From positions 1 through 39,327 of the forward strand of contig JAKQLF010000014.1 in assembly GCA_029567325.1 (NCBI GenBank): a stretch of DNA of 39,327 nucleotides, given 5' to 3'. The notes beneath the pieces were generated by a model, which was given only the letters and a program-made list of their open reading frames with translations, was not told the DNA's origin and ran no database searches. Within the stretch, counting starts at the first letter, position 1. Every line of letters starts with the position of its first letter. The position numbers and the translations under genes are program-made. Positions 1,694 through 39,327 of the stretch are shown here, piece by piece. This stretch comes from Bacteroidota bacterium. Its GTDB lineage: Bacteria; Bacteroidota; Bacteroidia; Chitinophagales; Saprospiraceae.

Positions 1694-3109
1694 TTAGTAG
1701 TGACATTTTTGACACTCCAATCCTCCAATATCAGATACGGTTACTTTTTCTCTGGTACCATCCTTCAACTCCTTGTGGAATTGCTCATAACTATTATAGT
1801 AAGGATTATCGGTAAATTTCACGTCTGTTTCTCTGTGACAATTGATACACCAGCCCATAGATAAAGGTGAATGTTGTTTTACAACTTCCATATTTTGCAC
1901 TTCACCATGACAGGTTTGGCAAGCTACCTTTCCTACAGATACGTGCTGTGCGTGATTGAAATATACGTGATCTGGAAGACCATGTACTCTTACCCACTCT
2001 ATAGGTCCTTGCACTTTTTTCTTTTGATCATTGGTAAGTGACTTTACAATATTTTTCCATTGATCATCGACCAATTCTTCTCCTTCATTGTCAATAGCTG
2101 TAATGCCCTTCTCAGTAATGTAACTATCTGCTATCCAAGCTGTGTAAATGGCCTTAACGGAATCTTGAGGAAGCATGTCATAATTTTCGATATACTTATT
2201 ATTGAGTGGATCGTAACCTATGGATGCAAATATTTTAGTGATTTCTGCAGTTCCATGTTTTGAACCCACTTTTATTGCTGCATGACAATTCATACAAGTA
2301 TTGGCTGCAGGAATGACACTGTGCTTGGATCTTCTAGCTCCATCGTGGCAATATTGACAATCAATTTTATTGACTCCAGCGTGAGTTTCGTGTGAAAAAG
2401 CAATTGGTTGATCAGGCTCATAACCTTGTTGACGTCCCAAGTTAATAGAGTTGTTTACAGTTGTGTAACCTCCAAAGATTACAATTGCAAATAATAAAAA
2501 GCTAATGATTCCTTTTGCTTTCAAAGTCGTCCATAGTGATGGCTTGTCAAATGACACACCTTCTTTAGCTGCACTGAGTTGGTTTAAGTTACCAATGATT
2601 CTGAATAATAGGTAAGAAAGACCTGCTAAAAACGCTGCCAATAACCAATACAACCAGTTATTGCTTGCTGGTTTTTCTGTAGTTGTGGTATCTGCCGCCA
2701 CTGCCGTTTTAGCTGCTGCACCATAAGTACCATCATAAGTGCCGTTGATGTATAAAAGTAATGAGCCAATTTCGTCATCGGTCAACTTTTCAAAGCTGGT
2801 CATGACCGTTGGCTTGTACTGATTCCAAAGTTCAACAGCCCTAGGATTTCCTGCAGCAATCATTGCTTGAGAATTTCTAATCCAAGCATAAAGATCTGCG
2901 TCATTTCCCCATCTAGCTTGAGAACCACCCAAAGCTGGCCCAGTCAGAGCAGTTTTCATGTTTTTGGCGTGACAAGAAGCACAATTGGCGGTAAACAAAG
3001 TTTTTCCCAAATCTGCTGAAGCTTCTGCCGAAACATTGCTGAGCGTTGTCAAAATCAAAACTGCTGCCAGAAATGATTTGAAAACGGAAAATCTCGAAAT
3101 TATATTCAT
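1694..3109 (-). CDS. actA: Alternative complex III multiheme cytochrome ActA with fused N-terminal monoheme cytochrome c
   Basis: The 471-residue product has six CXXCH heme sites: CASCH near residue 43 and, after two membrane segments (about 152-172 and 199-217), CQYCH (251), CMNCH (272), CQTCH (397), CINCH (421) and CQKCH (466). The last five match the pentaheme ActA core. The first sits in a class I cytochrome c domain behind a signal peptide (residues 1-28), equivalent to a separate ActE-type monoheme subunit. It would pass electrons from quinol to a terminal oxidase in the periplasm. The ATG at 3109 is chosen over an upstream ATG at 3178 because it begins a signal peptide and because 3178 lies inside the predicted -7 promoter element (3176-3183). 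It is the first visible gene of the act operon. Confidence 0.88.
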   Translation of the reverse strand: MNIISRFSVFKSFLAAVLILTTLSNVSAEASADLGKTLFTANCASCHAKNMKTALTGPALGGSQARWGNDADLYAWIRNSQAMIAAGNPRAVELWNQYKPTVMTSFEKLTDDEIGSLLLYINGTYDGTYGAAAKTAVAADTTTTEKPASNNWLYWLLAAFLAGLSYLLFRIIGNLNQLSAAKEGVSFDKPSLWTTLKAKGIISFLLFAIVIFGGYTTVNNSINLGRQQGYEPDQPIAFSHETHAGVNKIDCQYCHDGARRSKHSVIPAANTCMNCHAAIKVGSKHGTAEITKIFASIGYDPLNNKYIENYDMLPQDSVKAIYTAWIADSYITEKGITAIDNEGEELVDDQWKNIVKSLTNDQKKKVQGPIEWVRVHGLPDHVYFNHAQHVSVGKVACQTCHGEVQNMEVVKQHSPLSMGWCINCHRETDVKFTDNPYYNSYEQFHKELKDGTREKVTVSDIGGLECQKCHY

Positions 3110-3175
3110 TTTTCTATTATTCTGAAAATCAAATGATTGAACCATAAGCTTGATAGATCCTTGTGATAATTGGGG

Positions 3176-33475: not shown

Positions 33476-35764
33476 CTATTTAATTGCATATCTAATTCCA
33501 AAAAACAACCTCCTTCCTTGATTAGGACCAAAAACATAACTTGGATCAAATGTCAAACCATATGGATTACTTGGTGTCGGAATAACATTTCCCTGACTAT
33601 CAAATTCAACAGATTTATCAAATGGGTCAAAACTTCTGGCGATGATGAATGGGTTTCCTTTATTAGGTGTCCAATCCAATAAATTTTTAATGCCACCATA
33701 GATTTGAATGTTTTGAATTTTATCAAATGTAAGTTGGATGTTTTGGATGCTCCACCAAGGTGAGTACTCACGTCTGGGATCTAATTCACCCAATAAAGGC
33801 AACCTCATGGGACTATAAACATTGCCAGTGTAATCCAAAAGTAAATGTCCTAGTTTATGAGATACTGACCAAGTTCCCGTGAATTTTTCTGTCAAAATTT
33901 GCTGTGTGGTTATTTCATTTTCCGTGGTGGTATTTTCCATAAATGTACCTCCAACCAAAAATTTCAAACCATTATTCAATGCCAAATCTACATTCAAACT
34001 GATGCCTTTACTTTCTGCAAATCCATCTAAATTATCGTAAATAATCTTATTGGGGTCCAACTCATAATCTCCCACGATCCTGTTATTGAAATAAGTATAA
34101 AATGTTGATAAATCTATGCCTATCAAAGTGCCAGAATGAAAGAAAAATTTCTTGATGTAATTTAAATTGACATTATAAGATTGCTCTGGTTTTAATTCAT
34201 TTTTGATTTCTATGATTCTGGAACCAGTTAAAGCAGCATGGTCTTCTGTAAATAAACTCACCACCCTGAAACCCGTTCCTGCATTTAATCTTACAGTATT
34301 TTTATCATCTATTGTCCACTTGTATGCGAGTCGAGGCGTAAATATATGACCATGCTGATTGTGGTAATCGTACCGCATTCCAAGTAATAATTTATGGATC
34401 TTATTTAAGGCTATTTCATCCTGAATGAAAATCCCAGGTAACCAGGTTTTCTGAGGTTGATTCATCTGATTTATAGTATCTGCTGAGGAGGTTCCTGGTG
34501 TATTATCATCATAAAATGTATAGCGAAGTGCTGCCCCTGTTAATAACTCGTGACGCTTCCACGATTTATCCCAAGTCAATTGAGTAAATCCTATCTTTTG
34601 GGAAGCGATATATGATGTAATTCCATACCTGCTATCTTGATCGTGACCAATGAAAGAAAATGAAAACATCAATTTTTCGGAAGTTGGTAATTGATAATTT
34701 CCCAATACTTCCCACCGTTTTGTGAAAATACTCTCTCCATATATTTCATCTCCACCTCTGTGTTGCTTTGCCCATTGCATTTCACCACCAAATCTATTTT
34801 CAAATAAATACCTTCCTGCAACACTAAATAGTTTGTTATCCCTGCGCAAAAAATTCCATTTCTGGAAAACAGATGCACGATTTTGCAATGCTACATCCGT
34901 AAAATTATCCTGATTTTTATCAATTCTATTTTGGAAATTAAAATAATTTAGGCCAGTTAATATGCTCACCTTTTTACCAATTTTAGTTTTCAAGCCGATA
35001 TCGGCATTGTATTCTCCCCAACTAGTTGCAAAAATATCTGCAGACATTGTTGGAGCATTTTGAGGTGATTTGGTAATGATGTTGATCAGACCTCCAACGG
35101 CTTCACTACCATATAAAGATGAAGCAGGTCCTTTTACAATTTCTATGCGTTCAACCAATGAATTTGGTATACCCGATAGACCATAAACCGTTGCTAGACT
35201 GCTTACAATGGGCATGCCGTCAATAAGTACCATGGTATAGGGTCCTTCCAAACCATTGATGTGGATATCTCCTGTATTACAAATCTGGCAATTGAGTTGG
35301 GGTCTCACACCATTTACATTTTGCAAGGCATCATAAATATTGGGGCTTGGGTTTTTGCGGAAAAATGCAGGTGTGTAAACTTCCACAGGCACTGGGCTTG
35401 CTGATTTACTTACTGATTTCATTGTCCCAGTTACTACAACTTCATCAAGTGCAATTGCATAGTTTGTCAGATCAAAATTGACTTCCTTAAAGGCACCTAA
35501 CTCCAAAACCACTTCCTTTTCCACAGGAGTAAAGCCTAGAAAGGAGACTTGGATTTGATAGTTTCCAGGGAGTAAATTTTCAACTTTATAGATGCCATTG
35601 GAATCACCTGTTGTTCCAATTTCTGTATTCAAAACAGCTATCGTTGCAAAAGGAACGGGCTCTCCTCTAGCAATGATTTGTCCTGAAATGCCAGTATTCT
35701 GCCCCATCAATGAGCCGTTGATTAAAATAAAACAAAGCAAAATATTATGTCTCCACCAATACAT
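33476..35764 (-). CDS. TonB-dependent receptor with carboxypeptidase-regulatory domain, likely metal uptake
   Basis: The 762-residue product has a signal peptide, a CarboxypepD_reg-like domain (about 26-105), a TonB box-like LDEVVVTGT (107-114), a plug (about 120-235) with GIPNSLVERIEIVKGPASS and SEAVGGLINIITK, and a barrel ending in RLFFGIRYAIK. The plug carries an unusual CQIC (159-162; LNCQICNTGDIHINGLEG). A thioredoxin-like gene follows after 1 bp, and a divergent DtxR/MntR-type regulator lies 103 bp upstream with an operator between. These point to regulated uptake of a transition metal or metallophore; which one is unknown. Confidence 0.88.
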   Translation of the reverse strand: MYWWRHNILLCFILINGSLMGQNTGISGQIIARGEPVPFATIAVLNTEIGTTGDSNGIYKVENLLPGNYQIQVSFLGFTPVEKEVVLELGAFKEVNFDLTNYAIALDEVVVTGTMKSVSKSASPVPVEVYTPAFFRKNPSPNIYDALQNVNGVRPQLNCQICNTGDIHINGLEGPYTMVLIDGMPIVSSLATVYGLSGIPNSLVERIEIVKGPASSLYGSEAVGGLINIITKSPQNAPTMSADIFATSWGEYNADIGLKTKIGKKVSILTGLNYFNFQNRIDKNQDNFTDVALQNRASVFQKWNFLRRDNKLFSVAGRYLFENRFGGEMQWAKQHRGGDEIYGESIFTKRWEVLGNYQLPTSEKLMFSFSFIGHDQDSRYGITSYIASQKIGFTQLTWDKSWKRHELLTGAALRYTFYDDNTPGTSSADTINQMNQPQKTWLPGIFIQDEIALNKIHKLLLGMRYDYHNQHGHIFTPRLAYKWTIDDKNTVRLNAGTGFRVVSLFTEDHAALTGSRIIEIKNELKPEQSYNVNLNYIKKFFFHSGTLIGIDLSTFYTYFNNRIVGDYELDPNKIIYDNLDGFAESKGISLNVDLALNNGLKFLVGGTFMENTTTENEITTQQILTEKFTGTWSVSHKLGHLLLDYTGNVYSPMRLPLLGELDPRREYSPWWSIQNIQLTFDKIQNIQIYGGIKNLLDWTPNKGNPFIIARSFDPFDKSVEFDSQGNVIPTPSNPYGLTFDPSYVFGPNQGRRLFFGIRYAIK

Positions 35765-35792
35765 TTACCAAAAGTTACATCTCTAAAATATA

Positions 35793-35812
35793 CAAAGTTA
35801 GGTTAATCTAAC
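35793..35812. promoter_or_regulatory. DtxR-box-like operator overlapping the TonB-receptor -7 element
   Basis: GTTAGGTTAATCTAAC (35797-35812) is a 16-bp near-palindrome with one mismatched pair and resembles the DtxR/IdeR box TTAGGTTAGSCTAACCTAA. On the minus strand TAACTTTG (35800-35793) is a good TAnnTTTG element for the receptor gene, so the palindrome covers its -7 box. Binding of the divergent regulator would block it. The -33 element is not clear. Confidence 0.6.
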
Positions 35813-35835
35813 AATATTTGTTTTATATTTTTGAT

Positions 35836-35843
35836 TATATTTG
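35836..35843 (+). promoter_or_regulatory. Predicted -7 element of the metalloregulator gene
   Basis: TATATTTG fits TAnnTTTG, 24 bp before the ATG at 35868. An alternative TATTTTTG lies at 35826-35833. No well-spaced -33 element was found, so confidence is low. Confidence 0.35.
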
Positions 35844-35867
35844 TTTTCATATACTAATTTCTTGCAA

Positions 35868-36530
35868 ATGTTGCTTTCCTACACAGAAGAAAATTATCTC
35901 AAAGCCTTACTAAAAATAACTTTTGACAGTGGTGTTGAAAAAGTAGGAACGAATGAACTTGCGTCTGCTCTGGATGTAAAACCGGCAACTGCCAATGACA
36001 TGCTCAAGAAATTGAAGGAGAAAATGTTGGTTGATTACAAGAAGTACGGCAAAATCAACCTGACTTCAGAAGGTAAAAAAATTGCCATTGAAATCATCAG
36101 GAAACACCGTTTGTGGGAAACATTTTTATATCAAAAGTTAGAGTTTAGTTGGGATGAAGTGCATGAAGTCGCAGAGCAATTAGAGCATATCCAATCCCAA
36201 AAACTGGTTGACAAACTCGATAAGTTTTTAGCATACCCAGAATTCGACCCACATGGTGATCCAATTCCAAACAGCAAGGGGGAAATCAAGATACACTACA
36301 AAAAAACATTGTCAGAAATGACGCCTGGTAACACTTGTAAAATGGTTGCAGTAAAAGATAATTCAAGCCCATTTTTACAATATGTAGTGAAGGTCGGTTT
36401 GGGAATTAATAATGAAATAAACATTATTTCGATACAAGAATATGACTTGATGATGGTTATTGAAGTCAATGGACAACAATCTACCGTTAGCCAAAAGTTT
36501 GCTGAAAACATCTACGTCGTCAATAAATAA
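35868..36530 (+). CDS. DtxR/MntR-family metal-dependent transcriptional regulator
   Basis: The 220-residue product has an N-terminal winged helix (MLLSYTEENYLKALLKI, then ELASALDVKPATANDMLKKL) and a dimerisation domain with RKHRLWETFLYQKLEFSWDEVHE and HIQSQKLVDKLDKFL. The C-terminal SH3-like FeoA domain spans about 145-220. Size and domains fit Bacteroidota DtxR-type regulators of iron or manganese. The ATG at 35868 is used because it begins the family's conserved N-terminus; an upstream frame extends from 35841. It is divergent from the TonB receptor with a palindrome between them. Confidence 0.85.
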   Translation: MLLSYTEENYLKALLKITFDSGVEKVGTNELASALDVKPATANDMLKKLKEKMLVDYKKYGKINLTSEGKKIAIEIIRKHRLWETFLYQKLEFSWDEVHEVAEQLEHIQSQKLVDKLDKFLAYPEFDPHGDPIPNSKGEIKIHYKKTLSEMTPGNTCKMVAVKDNSSPFLQYVVKVGLGINNEINIISIQEYDLMMVIEVNGQQSTVSQKFAENIYVVNK

Positions 36531-36886: not shown

Positions 36887-36910
36887 GATTTTTGATAAAT
36901 TCTTATTTAT

Positions 36911-36945
36911 AAAGGGGGTACAAGACAATTGTATCTCCTTTTTTA
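36911..36945 (+). terminator. Intrinsic terminator after the CsbD gene
   Basis: A 13-bp stem (36911-36923 with 36929-36941, two G:T wobbles) with loop GACAA runs into a T tract. It lies 25 bp past the CsbD stop and fits a terminator. Confidence 0.65.
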
Positions 36946-37296
36946 TTTTACATCTTTTAATAAAGATGCCACTAAAATATAATCGTGCAACTAATGCCTA
37001 GAGTAGATCACACAAGACACCACAAAATGATATTCAAGCTCACAAAACTGTAAGCCCACTGGAATAGAAAAATTGAATAGAACCACAACTGCGCCTTTAC
37101 TGCTTGCGAGTTATGAATCAAAGATGGGTAAAATAGTTGAAACAAAAACTCAGGGTATCCCCTGAAAAAGTAGCAAATTCTATTATTGATTGAAATTTTT
37201 ACCCTTAAGGCATTCCACCTATTTGAATATTGAAGCTAAAATGGTTGCTTTTCTTTTCTGCCATTCCTACAATGAAATCCGTTTTGTCGCCCATTT
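36946..37296. other. Gene-free stretch before the 53-bp array
   Basis: No convincing gene. A 6-bp-arm hairpin TCAGGG...CCCTGA with a 4-nt loop lies at 37150-37165. Open frames here are short and unlike any family. Confidence 0.35.
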
Positions 37297-37516
37297 TTTG
37301 AGCAATTACAACTTATTGTTGAGCGCCAAATCCAAAAAATCATTCCACTTTTGGCGACGGATAATTATTTATAGCTCGCCAAATCTATATTTTTTTCATA
37401 CATTTGGCGACTTATAATTATTTATAGCCCGCCAAATCTGCATTTAATTAGTACATTTGGCGACTTATAATTATCTATAGCTTGCCAAATCTATAACTTT
37501 TTCGTACATTTGGCGA
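37297..37516. repeat. 53-bp tandem repeat with embedded inverted repeats, leader of the ATPase gene
   Basis: TTTGGCGA boxes start at 37350, 37403, 37456 and 37509, exactly 53 bp apart. Each of the first three is followed, after an AT-rich spacer with TATAATTATTTATAG or a variant, by a matching CGCCAAA-type arm (37376-37383, 37430-37436, 37482-37489; the third has one mismatch). A decayed unit precedes them (37297-37349, with CGCCAAA at 37324 in exact phase). The last half-box ends 12 bp before the ATPase ATG. Confidence 0.85.
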
Positions 37517-37528
37517 AAGATAGCAGCA

Positions 37529-38959
37529 ATGGAATTAATAGGAAGATTGGAACCTGCAGAAAAATTAAGGCAACGTTTGCGCTCTAAAAATGCAGAGCTC
37601 GTTGCAGTGCTAGGCAGAAGGCGAGTAGGTAAAACATTTTTGATTAAGCAGGTACTAAAAAAGGAAATTGTTTTTCACTACACAGGGCTTCACAACGGAA
37701 CTATGAAAGAAAACTTAGAACGATTTTCTGCCACCCTTTCCAACGCAATGGATTTATCCATTCGTCTGAACACTCCAAAAAACTGGTTTGAAGCATTTGA
37801 CTATTTGAGAACTTTCATCATTACCCACACCACTAAAAAGAAAAAGGTTATTTTTTTGGATGAGTTTCCTTGGATTGCTACCAATAAATCAAAATTCCTT
37901 GTAGCATTCACAGACTTTTGGAATTCATTTGCAGCGGATAGGCAAGACATAATGGTCGTAATTTGTGGGTCATCTGCTTCTTGGATGATTCAAAAAGTTT
38001 TGAAAAATAAAGGTGGGCTTCATAACAGGGTAACTGATCGTATTTTTTTAGAACCTTTTGATTTAAAGGAAACCAAATCTTTTTTAAGGAATAAAAACAT
38101 TATTTTGACCGATGTAGATATCGTTAAACTCTATATGGCCATCGGAGGTATACCCTATTACCTTGAACAATTCCAGAAAGGTGAAAGCATTGTGCAAGGA
38201 ATCGACCGAGTTTGTTTTGAAAAAGGTGCACTTTTAAGAATAGAATACAATGAGTTACTTACATCTTTATTTGATCAAGCCGAAAAACATCAATTGGTCA
38301 TCGACCTTTTGAGTGAAAATCCCCGTGGTTTACAAAGGGCAGAAATCATGGAGCGCACCAAACTCAGCAGTGGGGGAGGCACATCTTCTATATTTGAAGA
38401 ATTAGAAGTGTCTGGATTTATTGTATCTCAAACACCATTCGGCAATAAAATAAAAGAAAAAATTTACCGCCTCAAAGATTATTACATTTTATTCTACACC
38501 AAGTTTATTAAGAATAGTAAACCAAGTACCCATCATTTGTGGGAAAAGATGGCTACACTTCCTTCATATAAAAGCTGGAGTGGCTTAGCTTTTGAAAATG
38601 TATGCATCGACCATATTGATCCAATAAAAAAAGCACTAAAAATAGATGGAATCTTAAGTAACTCTGAAGCTTGGCATTCCAGAGGCAATGACGAAATGCC
38701 TGGTGCACAAATAGACTTGCTCATAGATCGGGCAGATGGTATCATCAATATTTGTGAAATAAAATTTGTGAATGCCCCCTTCACAATTACTGCAGAATAT
38801 CTTAAAAATTTACAATTGAAAATAGCATCCTTTCAACATTTTACAAAAACAAGGAAAACGCTATTCCCCACGATGATTACCACTTTCGGACTGGTAGATA
38901 ATATCCACAGCAATGGCTTTATCCAACAATCCGTGGAGGTGAAAGATTTGTTCTTATAA
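37529..38959 (+). CDS. AAA+ ATPase (ATPase_2/DUF234 type) with nuclease-like C-terminus
   Basis: The 476-residue product has an N-terminal ATPase domain with Walker A GRRRVGKT (29-36), Walker B VIFLDEF (107-113, D111/E112) and a sensor-like CGSSASWM (146-153). A winged-helix region spans about 255-300. The C-terminal DUF234 part (about 345-476) contains E356, D396 (AQIDLLIDR) and E410-x-K412 (CEIKF), the pattern of a PD-(D/E)XK nuclease fold. Members are patchy and often duplicated in bacteria and archaea and their role is unknown. The tandem inverted-repeat array ending 12 bp upstream suggests autoregulation or a mobile cassette. Catalysis is not proven. Confidence 0.85.
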   Translation: MELIGRLEPAEKLRQRLRSKNAELVAVLGRRRVGKTFLIKQVLKKEIVFHYTGLHNGTMKENLERFSATLSNAMDLSIRLNTPKNWFEAFDYLRTFIITHTTKKKKVIFLDEFPWIATNKSKFLVAFTDFWNSFAADRQDIMVVICGSSASWMIQKVLKNKGGLHNRVTDRIFLEPFDLKETKSFLRNKNIILTDVDIVKLYMAIGGIPYYLEQFQKGESIVQGIDRVCFEKGALLRIEYNELLTSLFDQAEKHQLVIDLLSENPRGLQRAEIMERTKLSSGGGTSSIFEELEVSGFIVSQTPFGNKIKEKIYRLKDYYILFYTKFIKNSKPSTHHLWEKMATLPSYKSWSGLAFENVCIDHIDPIKKALKIDGILSNSEAWHSRGNDEMPGAQIDLLIDRADGIINICEIKFVNAPFTITAEYLKNLQLKIASFQHFTKTRKTLFPTMITTFGLVDNIHSNGFIQQSVEVKDLFL

Positions 38960-39212
38960 ACATTTCCTTTTATTCTGTGAAGCCATGGAGTGCCGCAACA
39001 AATCACATTTTACATCTCACATTAACCAATATGCGATCAGGGAAGGCACACTGGCCTTCCTCTGCATGTGGTTCCAATTTATATTTTATCCTGTAAATCC
39101 ACGCCATGCCTTAACAAATCACATTTCACATTTCACATTTTACATCTTTCAACCATTCACTATTTACCATTCACTATTTACCATTCACTATTCAATGTCG
39201 TTAAGTTAAGGC
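38960..39212. repeat. Simple repeats and a hairpin downstream of the ATPase
   Basis: A perfect hairpin GGAAGGC...GCCTTCC with a 6-nt loop lies at 39041-39060; no T tract follows, so termination is doubtful. Three 14-bp units CCATTCACTATTTA lie at 39153-39194. CACATTTTACATCT-like repeats surround them. No gene recognised. Confidence 0.5.
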
Positions 39213-39327
39213 TCAATAGTGCTTATAAGCATCATAGAAATGCCTTTTTCTTTTTTTGGGTCTTGGGTTGGATCGATTGGGCCTAATAATTTCTCTGGTT
39301 TGGTAGACTATTTTGTCGAAGAACTCA
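39213..39327 (-). pseudogene. Possible C-terminus of a transposase (cut by window edge)
   Basis: An open minus-strand frame of 38 codons ends at a TGA at 39213-39215 and reads TREIIRPNRSNPRPKKRKRH before the end. The run of basic residues with RPNRxxPR resembles C-termini of IS4-type transposases. The fragment is short, so it may be something else, and whether the gene is intact lies beyond the edge. Confidence 0.3.

Follow-up and report, generated by a model that had tools for sequence, protein, structure and literature searches.

The window, by which we mean the whole stretch of 39,327 nucleotides analysed here (contig JAKQLF010000014.1, GenBank assembly GCA_029567325.1, from a bacterium of the Saprospiraceae), carries near its right end a gene for a 476-residue ATPase preceded by an ordered array of inverted repeats (Table 1). 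Four TTTGGCGA boxes start at 37350, 37403, 37456 and 37509, with spacings of 53, 53 and 53 bp, and inverted arms start at 37377 (CGCCAAA), 37430 (CGCCAAA) and 37483 (TGCCAAA). A decayed arm, CGCCAAA at 37324, lies upstream in exact 53-bp phase with the array, and 12 bp separate the end of the last box (37516) from the ATG at 37529. The initial annotation had described this arrangement of boxes, inverted partners, decayed arm and short gap, and we confirmed it base by base. In total the array comprises eight alternating arms of the type xGCxAAA. Its unit pattern matches three times in the window and not at all in 100 dinucleotide-preserving shuffles. Judging by the extent of homology to a second, gene-less array on contig C269 of the same genome, the unit may begin on its left side near 37294. 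On the 5' side, positions 33476-36530 encode a TonB-dependent receptor and an iron-dependent repressor with an FeoA domain, neither of which has an evident link to the gene. AT-rich repeats of the CACATTT and ACCATTCACTATT types follow the gene at 38963-39190, and positions 39075-39149 match a segment near the C269 array.

Table 1. Coordinates of the array, the gene and its predicted parts within the window.
Feature	Position	Strand	Basis
Eight alternating arms, period 53 bp (8-mer words start at 37324, 37349, 37377, 37402, 37430, 37455, 37483 and 37508)	37324..37516		Sequence
Stretch 84% identical over 198 columns to the gene-less array G000:C269:37720-37916	37294..37490		DNA homology
TTG within the penultimate arm as candidate -33 element, the -7 element following after 20 bp	37482..37484	+	Sequence and inference from the promoter consensus
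Candidate -7 element TACATTTG (TAnnTTTG), overlapping the last arm TTTGGCGA	37505..37512	+	Sequence; family-wide enrichment
Nuclease-ATPase gene, 476 aa (PADLOC PDC-S27; Pfam ATPase_2)	37529..38959	+	ORF and profile matches
ATPase domain, spanning residues 1-215, with Walker A at 29-36 and Walker B at 111-112	37529..38173	+	Profile, conservation, model, structure matches
Predicted winged helix at roughly residues 250-320, with its recognition helix at 283-294 and its wing connecting strands 298-301 and 312-315	38276..38488	+	AlphaFold2 model; domain name inferred
Codons of residues 281 (S) to 287 (S), 284 (G) among them, where the recognition helix begins; predicted to read bases	38369..38389	+	Co-variation
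Codon of wing residue 309 (K), co-varying with arm base 7	38453..38455	+	Co-variation
C-terminal nuclease-like domain, residues 345-476, with D396 and E410-x-K412	38561..38956	+	Conservation, model

The motifs of a Walker-type ATPase with a nuclease-like C-terminus, which the initial annotation had also proposed, are present in the open reading frame (Walker A GRRRVGKT, Walker B FLDE and a C-terminal QID...ExK). In an alignment of 80 sequences, comprising the window protein and 79 of 80 homologue loci with the partial L094 left out, G29, R30-R32, G34, K35, T36, D111, E112, Q394, D396, E410 and K412 are invariant. The Pfam family ATPase_2 (PF01637) matches the window protein at 74.6 bits against a curated cut-off of 33.2 and is matched by all 80 sequences; DUF234 (PF03008) is matched at E<=0.1 by 51 of the 80 (best 3.3e-5), the window protein not being among them. 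The PADLOC model PDLC04984 (PDC-S27) covers residues 2-475 of 476 with an E value of 5.1e-187. An AlphaFold2 model built from the 80 aligned sequences (mean pLDDT 92.9) places a helix-helix-helix-strand-strand unit at about residues 250-320, after the ATPase and before a C-terminal alpha/beta domain. We read this unit as a predicted winged helix lying between ATPase and nuclease, so that the earlier view that nothing in the product explains such a leader is not borne out. The modelled C-terminal domain has strands at 377-386, 391-401 and 405-412, a helix at 422-439 and a strand at 444-451. The D...(D/E)xK pattern formed by the invariant D396, E410 and K412 makes it a likely PD-(D/E)XK-type nuclease, for which metal-dependent cleavage is putative. 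The best Foldseek match in the PDB was Pyrococcus abyssi PABY2304 (2qen; TM 0.48/0.62), and the second-best was a Cdc6/Orc1 initiator bound to origin DNA (2qby).

Upstream arrays recur across this family, which is itself patchily distributed: counting the genome of the window, 18 of 60 genomes have it, and a single genome can hold as many as 23 matches. The own genome (5.8 Mb in 402 contigs) encodes ten full-length members, and the nine besides the window protein share 38-51% identity with it. By script count, 4 to 9 alternating arms lie upstream of nine of these ten genes, and the tenth, L008, has two widely spaced arm pairs upstream, as judged by eye. Arm words vary among these members, with related ones recurring (L004 and L006 share the core CAGCCA). 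Among 114 homologues with sufficient upstream DNA, a set that includes two duplicate records without an array, 67 have at least four alternating upstream arms. The same count was reached in 4 of 570 shuffles, in 1 of 111 windows taken downstream and in 1 of 114 taken inside the gene; a first, less sensitive 8-mer count had placed 40 of the 114 above all of their shuffles. Enlarging the set to 174 homologues, three of which were dropped for having less than 150 bp upstream, gave at least four upstream arms in 102 of 171 against 1 of 167 downstream windows (99 of 166 once five duplicates had been removed), and a class-level set had them in 14 of 48 upstream windows and in none of 47 downstream ones. 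As a control, four arms were found at one of 30 loci encoding DUF4143 ATPases, these loci coming from 18 of the 30 genomes searched. The own genome also contains ten DUF4143-type ATPase matches, two of them among the 30 control loci. Thus, the recurrence check proposed in the initial annotation was run, and homologues do carry upstream arrays. Fewer than four arms were detectable in 69 of 171 homologues of the enlarged set and in 34 of 48 of the class-level set, so that the array is either not universal or often diverged.

Array-bearing members also occur among plasmid and viral sequences: six of 24 plasmid, phage and viral-contig members have at least four arms, including those of Wolbachia phage WO and of a Malaciobacter plasmid, and a Butyrivibrio plasmid member has an arm pair and a third arm by eye. 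No clear array was seen at one distant haloarchaeal plasmid member, the sole archaeal member examined. In the Wolbachia phage WO record (L246) a four-arm array of the ACCGCGGT type lies upstream of the gene at 1989, and the viral contig L251 is arranged likewise.

The geometry of these arrays is rigid. In the 99 arrays analysed, which had been pre-selected for at least four arms and freed of duplicates, and of which 64 have exactly four arms, the spacings after arm alignment are 27 bp (10-90%: 26-27) and 26 bp (25-28), with a median period of 53 bp; arrays of up to ten arms occur. Spacing is constant across the family, and it is the sequence of the arms that differs from gene to gene.

The downstream end of the array coincides with a likely promoter. 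The motif TAnnTTTG, which we take to be the -7 promoter motif of Bacteroidota, was found in the last 60 bp before the gene in 119 of 219 cases; the reverse strand gave 27, downstream DNA 10 and DNA far upstream 5. Within the last 80 bp it is present in 58 of the 99 arrays, in 56 of these 58 inside the array or no more than 30 bp after it, and 22 of the 58 motifs are accompanied by TTG at about -33. Transcription would be expected to start some 7 bp downstream of the -7 motif, which would leave the array untranscribed.

Arm sequence changes together with the adjacent protein. More similar proteins tend to have more similar arms (rank correlation 0.21; Mantel test, 1 of 1000 permutations), and the local signal peaks in the recognition helix, at residues 281-300 (0.181), with stretches of the nuclease domain close behind (0.167 and 0.161). 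Of single columns compared with arm similarity, 281 ranks first and 382 second, both above the permutation maximum. Column 382 (codon 38672-38674) lies in the nuclease domain and is unexplained by a winged-helix reading. When the arms of the 99 arrays were aligned blind to the protein they gave the profile NNGCNAAAWC, and mutual information was then computed between its bases and the 476 protein columns. Base 5 is highest at residue 281 (z 25.3; largest null 5.0), bases 1 and 2 are highest at 284 (z 11.1 each) with 287 second for base 2 (z 9.2), and base 7 is highest at the wing residue 309 (z 9.0). Off this scheme, base 4 is led by residue 153 (z 16.1) and base 9 by 138 (z 8.3, with 309 second at 8.1), and no protein column rose above the null for base 3 in the 99 arrays.

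At residue 281, serine goes with C at base 5 in 26 of 26 arrays, threonine with C in 9 of 9, asparagine with T in 21 of 25, glutamate with G in 9 of 10 and aspartate with G in 12 of 21. At residue 287, arginine accompanies G at base 2 in 22 of 30 and asparagine A in 5 of 5, and at residue 309, lysine accompanies A at base 7 in 57 of 58 and arginine T in 17 of 26. Familiar rules of recognition couple asparagine with A, aspartate or glutamate with C, and arginine with G. The observed pairings fit these rules, aspartate and glutamate going with C on one or other strand, and make chemical sense. Residues 281, 284 and 287 are moreover spaced as i, i+3 and i+6.

The signal at 281 persists among representatives below 55% identity (41 arrays, z 18.7) and below 50% (22 arrays, z 8.2), and in the latter 281 alone stays top; 284, 287 and 309 do not. 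Co-changes were counted on a tree built without the winged helix (columns 250-320), columns with at least five changes being ranked for bases 5, 1, 2 and 7. Residues 281, 284, 287 and 309 each came first for these respective bases, with 12 observed co-changes against 4.7 expected, 15 against 7.3, 23 against 10.1 and 7 against 2.0; residue 284 was barely ahead of the next column (9.3e-4 versus 9.7e-4), and the p-values are uncorrected for the number of columns. In a cross-prediction trained solely on homologues less than 50% identical, 281 gave base 5 in 69 of 83 cases (majority guess 25), 287 gave base 2 in 54 of 87 (majority 19), 284 gave base 1 in 64 of 91 (majority 39) and 309 gave base 7 in 83 of 93 (majority 71).

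Arrays outside the training material separate the pairings further. Residue 281 correctly predicted base 5 in 11 of the 14 arrays taken from new genomes (majority 4 of 14; no more than 71% in 2000 permutations); one of these arrays, L186, belongs to a protein 96% identical to a training member, the others being at most 72% identical, and leaving it out gives 10 of 13. Among the three misses, two (L218 and L232) look like mis-registered arms, a judgement made post hoc. The remaining rules performed weakly on the same new arrays: residue 284 gave base 1 in 8 of 13 (majority 10) and base 2 in 8 of 13 (majority 5), 287 gave base 2 in 5 of 13 (majority 5), and 309 gave base 7 in 9 of 12 (majority 10). 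For 31 older arrays of three arms, 281 gave base 5 in 19 of 31 (majority 16), 284 gave base 1 in 15 of 24 (majority 15) and base 2 in 11 of 24 (majority 5), 287 gave base 2 in 10 of 31 (majority 5) and 309 gave base 7 in 25 of 30 (majority 20). On these scores, the co-variation of predicted recognition-helix and wing residues with arm bases is well supported for 281 and moderately supported for 284, 287 and 309, and it would point to binding of each array by the protein encoded next to it.

A nearest-pair test of 281 against base 5 was not significant, the base differing in 5 of 13 pairs in which 281 had changed and in 5 of 29 in which it had not (p = 0.24); several of the nearest pairs with a changed 281 are S/T, D/E or K/R substitutions, which read the same base in the residue-base tables. 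Arms differ no more within a genome than between genomes. We also considered exclusion between paralogues with the same arms and rejected it: identical 6-base cores occur in 8 of 282 within-genome pairs against 10.4 expected from permutation (P = 0.38), and cores of 5 bases (11 of 282, P = 0.46) and 7 bases (4 of 282, P = 0.15) give the same picture.

Array and gene are closely associated. In the 5.8 Mb of the own genome, the exact arm-pair pattern of the window occurs solely in the window array and in the C269 array (L216, 37720-37916), which is of the window arm type, has no family gene nearby and looks like the remnant of a lost unit. Among 60 genomes, four hold the CAGCCAAAA dyad, at seven loci in all. 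Six of these loci immediately precede a family gene, and the seventh is a single, terminator-like hairpin just after a stop codon. The TTTGGCGA triple was found at three loci, two directly upstream of a family gene and the third being the C269 array, with no match among viral contigs. Backward control patterns gave no match in the dyad search and one in the triple search. Both arm types searched are thus found almost exclusively beside the family gene, and the concern raised in the initial annotation, that identical arrays might lie next to unrelated genes, was checked in this way and not substantiated. A scan of IMG/VR also turned up a three-arm CAGCCAAAA array at 3059-3121 of the viral contig IMGVR_UViG_3300032322_002195 (L298), with no family gene in the 11.5 kb analysed; it is possibly a captured site, a decoy or a remnant in a phage.

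The association may extend to inheritance. There were 26 pairs with proteins 75-92% identical once duplicates had been set aside, several of them sharing a member, and all were compared. In 25 of the 26, the DNA match consists of the array, or as much of it as was available, and the gene to roughly its stop codon, with no collinear match in the flanks compared; some matches start only within the array, one starts within the gene, and in pairs with L119, L101 or L072 the flank on one side is very short. The exception is one syntenic Pedobacter pair. When the upstream flank of the window was compared with six genomes of the genus, the matches besides its own were in G005 (68%, within the TonB gene) and G004 (204 bp), and this comparison brought no empty site or target duplication to light. 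At L011, positions 1-620 hold two CAACTTGGCGA-type arrays alternating with truncated 3' ends of the gene, that is, tandem and internally deleted units. These observations fit a compact unit of array and gene that spreads and decays.

Taken together, our findings make it probable that the product of the adjacent gene has the array as its specific DNA target, namely its own operator, bound for self-repression. Of the possibilities listed in the initial annotation, a self-repressing operator is the one supported, as far as sequence can support it, by arms that co-vary with the recognition helix and wing and by an array that overlaps a promoter-like motif. We envisage a protein in which an ATPase resembling Orc1/Cdc6 is combined with a winged helix and a nuclease domain of the PD-(D/E)XK type, and for which one arm would be one winged-helix site. 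In each arm, bases 5, 1 and 2 would be read by residues 281, 284 and 287 of the recognition helix, and the A/T flank (base 7) by residue 309 of the wing. Since the arms flip direction every 26-27 bp, equivalent to 2.5 helical turns, neighbouring protomers would face each other across two-fold axes and could assemble cooperatively along the array. Binding would most likely repress the gene because the last arms overlap the promoter, and repression would keep a potentially harmful nuclease low until the complex dissolves, plausibly upon phage infection or a change in ATP state.

Repression alone leaves arrays of up to ten arms unexplained, which counts against the operator reading. It is tempting to speculate that the array is additionally a private self-address, at which the ATPase-nuclease would assemble as an oligomer of fixed geometry that holds the nuclease inactive. 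Paralogues would then be independent sensors that release the nuclease when their address is lost, unwound or titrated, for instance by an invading replicon, and the unit would spread as a 1.5-kb cassette of array and gene. We regard this extension as tentative and less likely than not.

Other readings of the array are weaker than the operator. One, which we consider unlikely, holds that the array is the recognition end of a compact mobile cassette, on which the ATPase-nuclease acts in order to move or copy array and gene. The shared DNA of 25 of the 26 close pairs, the gene-less array homologous to that of the window, the tandem truncated units at L011 and the patchy occurrence of the family would all be expected of such a cassette, and the best sequence matches in the PDB are TnsC transposon ATPases, albeit weak ones (E 6e-5). 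However, array-bearing copies within one genome share at most 66% identity among the 99 arrays, so that near-identical copies are lacking, and ordinary transfer of defence genes would look similar. Moreover, few arms lie on the 3' side: in the 200 bp after the gene at 99 loci there are 16 own-arm matches (0.16 per locus, against 0.08 for the arms of other loci), and an inverted own-arm pair occurs, within 70 bp, solely at L003 and L067. A terminal-repeat transposon, with the recognition sequence at both ends, finds no support on the 3' side, given these 2 of 99 loci. Arms 3' of the gene are also seen by eye at L008. The suggestion in the initial annotation that the array belongs to an element moving with its gene thus stands insofar as array and gene act as a unit in differing contexts, and falters on the irregularity of arms on the 3' side.

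A reading of the array as an RNA leader, also suggested initially, fared worse and seems to us very improbable. Here the transcribed array would form stacked hairpins that control the protein or are processed by it, in the manner of a type III toxin-antitoxin system. Indeed, the predicted RNA fold of 37324-37516 is strong (z -7.0), but any palindromic array would give such a fold. Against it, mismatches between arms are 89 G.T and 84 A.C (p = 0.76), which is no wobble preference on the coding strand; the promoter motifs sit where the array ends on the side of the gene; the arm bases co-vary with a predicted DNA-binding helix; and the spacing fits helical turns. The sole Rfam match in 36900-39327 is snoR1, at 22.3 bits against a gathering threshold of 49 (E 0.13), and it lies for the most part 5' of the array. 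We rejected a type III toxin-antitoxin pair, there being no RNA wobble signature and the window protein matching ATPase families only. Binding of the array by a different, host-encoded regulator, with the gene association a matter of promoter architecture only, would suit the overlap with the promoter motif but is hardly credible, since arm sequence differs between paralogues of the same cell and follows residues of the adjacent protein itself.

The operator reading bears comparison with several known systems. REP palindromes, which are associated with RAYT transposases, are likewise tied to one gene family; in contrast, the arm-pair pattern of the window is not dispersed, being confined in 5.8 Mb to its own array and one gene-less array, and the profile scans run on the window protein matched no transposase family. 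Orc1/Cdc6 initiators are AAA+ ATPases with a winged helix that read inverted sites at origins. The window protein, with its ATPase and predicted winged helix, resembles them (2qby) but differs in its C-terminal nuclease-like domain and in having the array at its own promoter, with no origin function indicated. With PABY2304 (2qen), of the ATPase_2/DUF234 type, it has ATPase_2 in common, but it is not itself among the 51 of 80 sequences matched by DUF234 at E<=0.1.

The family itself is already known as PDC-S27, a putative single-gene candidate for phage defence, validation being pending for most such candidates (PMC12988326, PMC13356809), with 3503 archaeal and 4562 bacterial detections (PMC12988326). 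In the parts of these two accounts that we consulted there is mention neither of an upstream array or operator nor of a tested mechanism; the window protein is a full-length match to PDC-S27, and the upstream array is a feature of the genes studied here. In the literature searched, whose coverage lies mostly outside subscription papers and leaves absence unproven, we found no account of the array or of the residue-base relation. The recurring array and the residue-base pattern would give many PDC-S27 members a predicted DNA target that is directly testable, and the set may be of use as a series of natural variants in winged-helix specificity. Should the array indeed keep the nuclease inactive, a putative defence nuclease would be tied to its own locus in an unusual manner.

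Repression of a defence operon at promoter repeats is also known already, from what we have seen of the description of RptR, the repressor of a defence island (PMC12255303). RptR is there a small, separate regulator with a conserved TAGCTA site (PMC12255303), whereas in the family described here the nuclease-ATPase itself would carry the predicted reader and the arms differ between members. As far as our searches reach, what appears to be new is this pairing of a nuclease-ATPase bearing its own predicted reader with a matching array, the two co-varying across the family.
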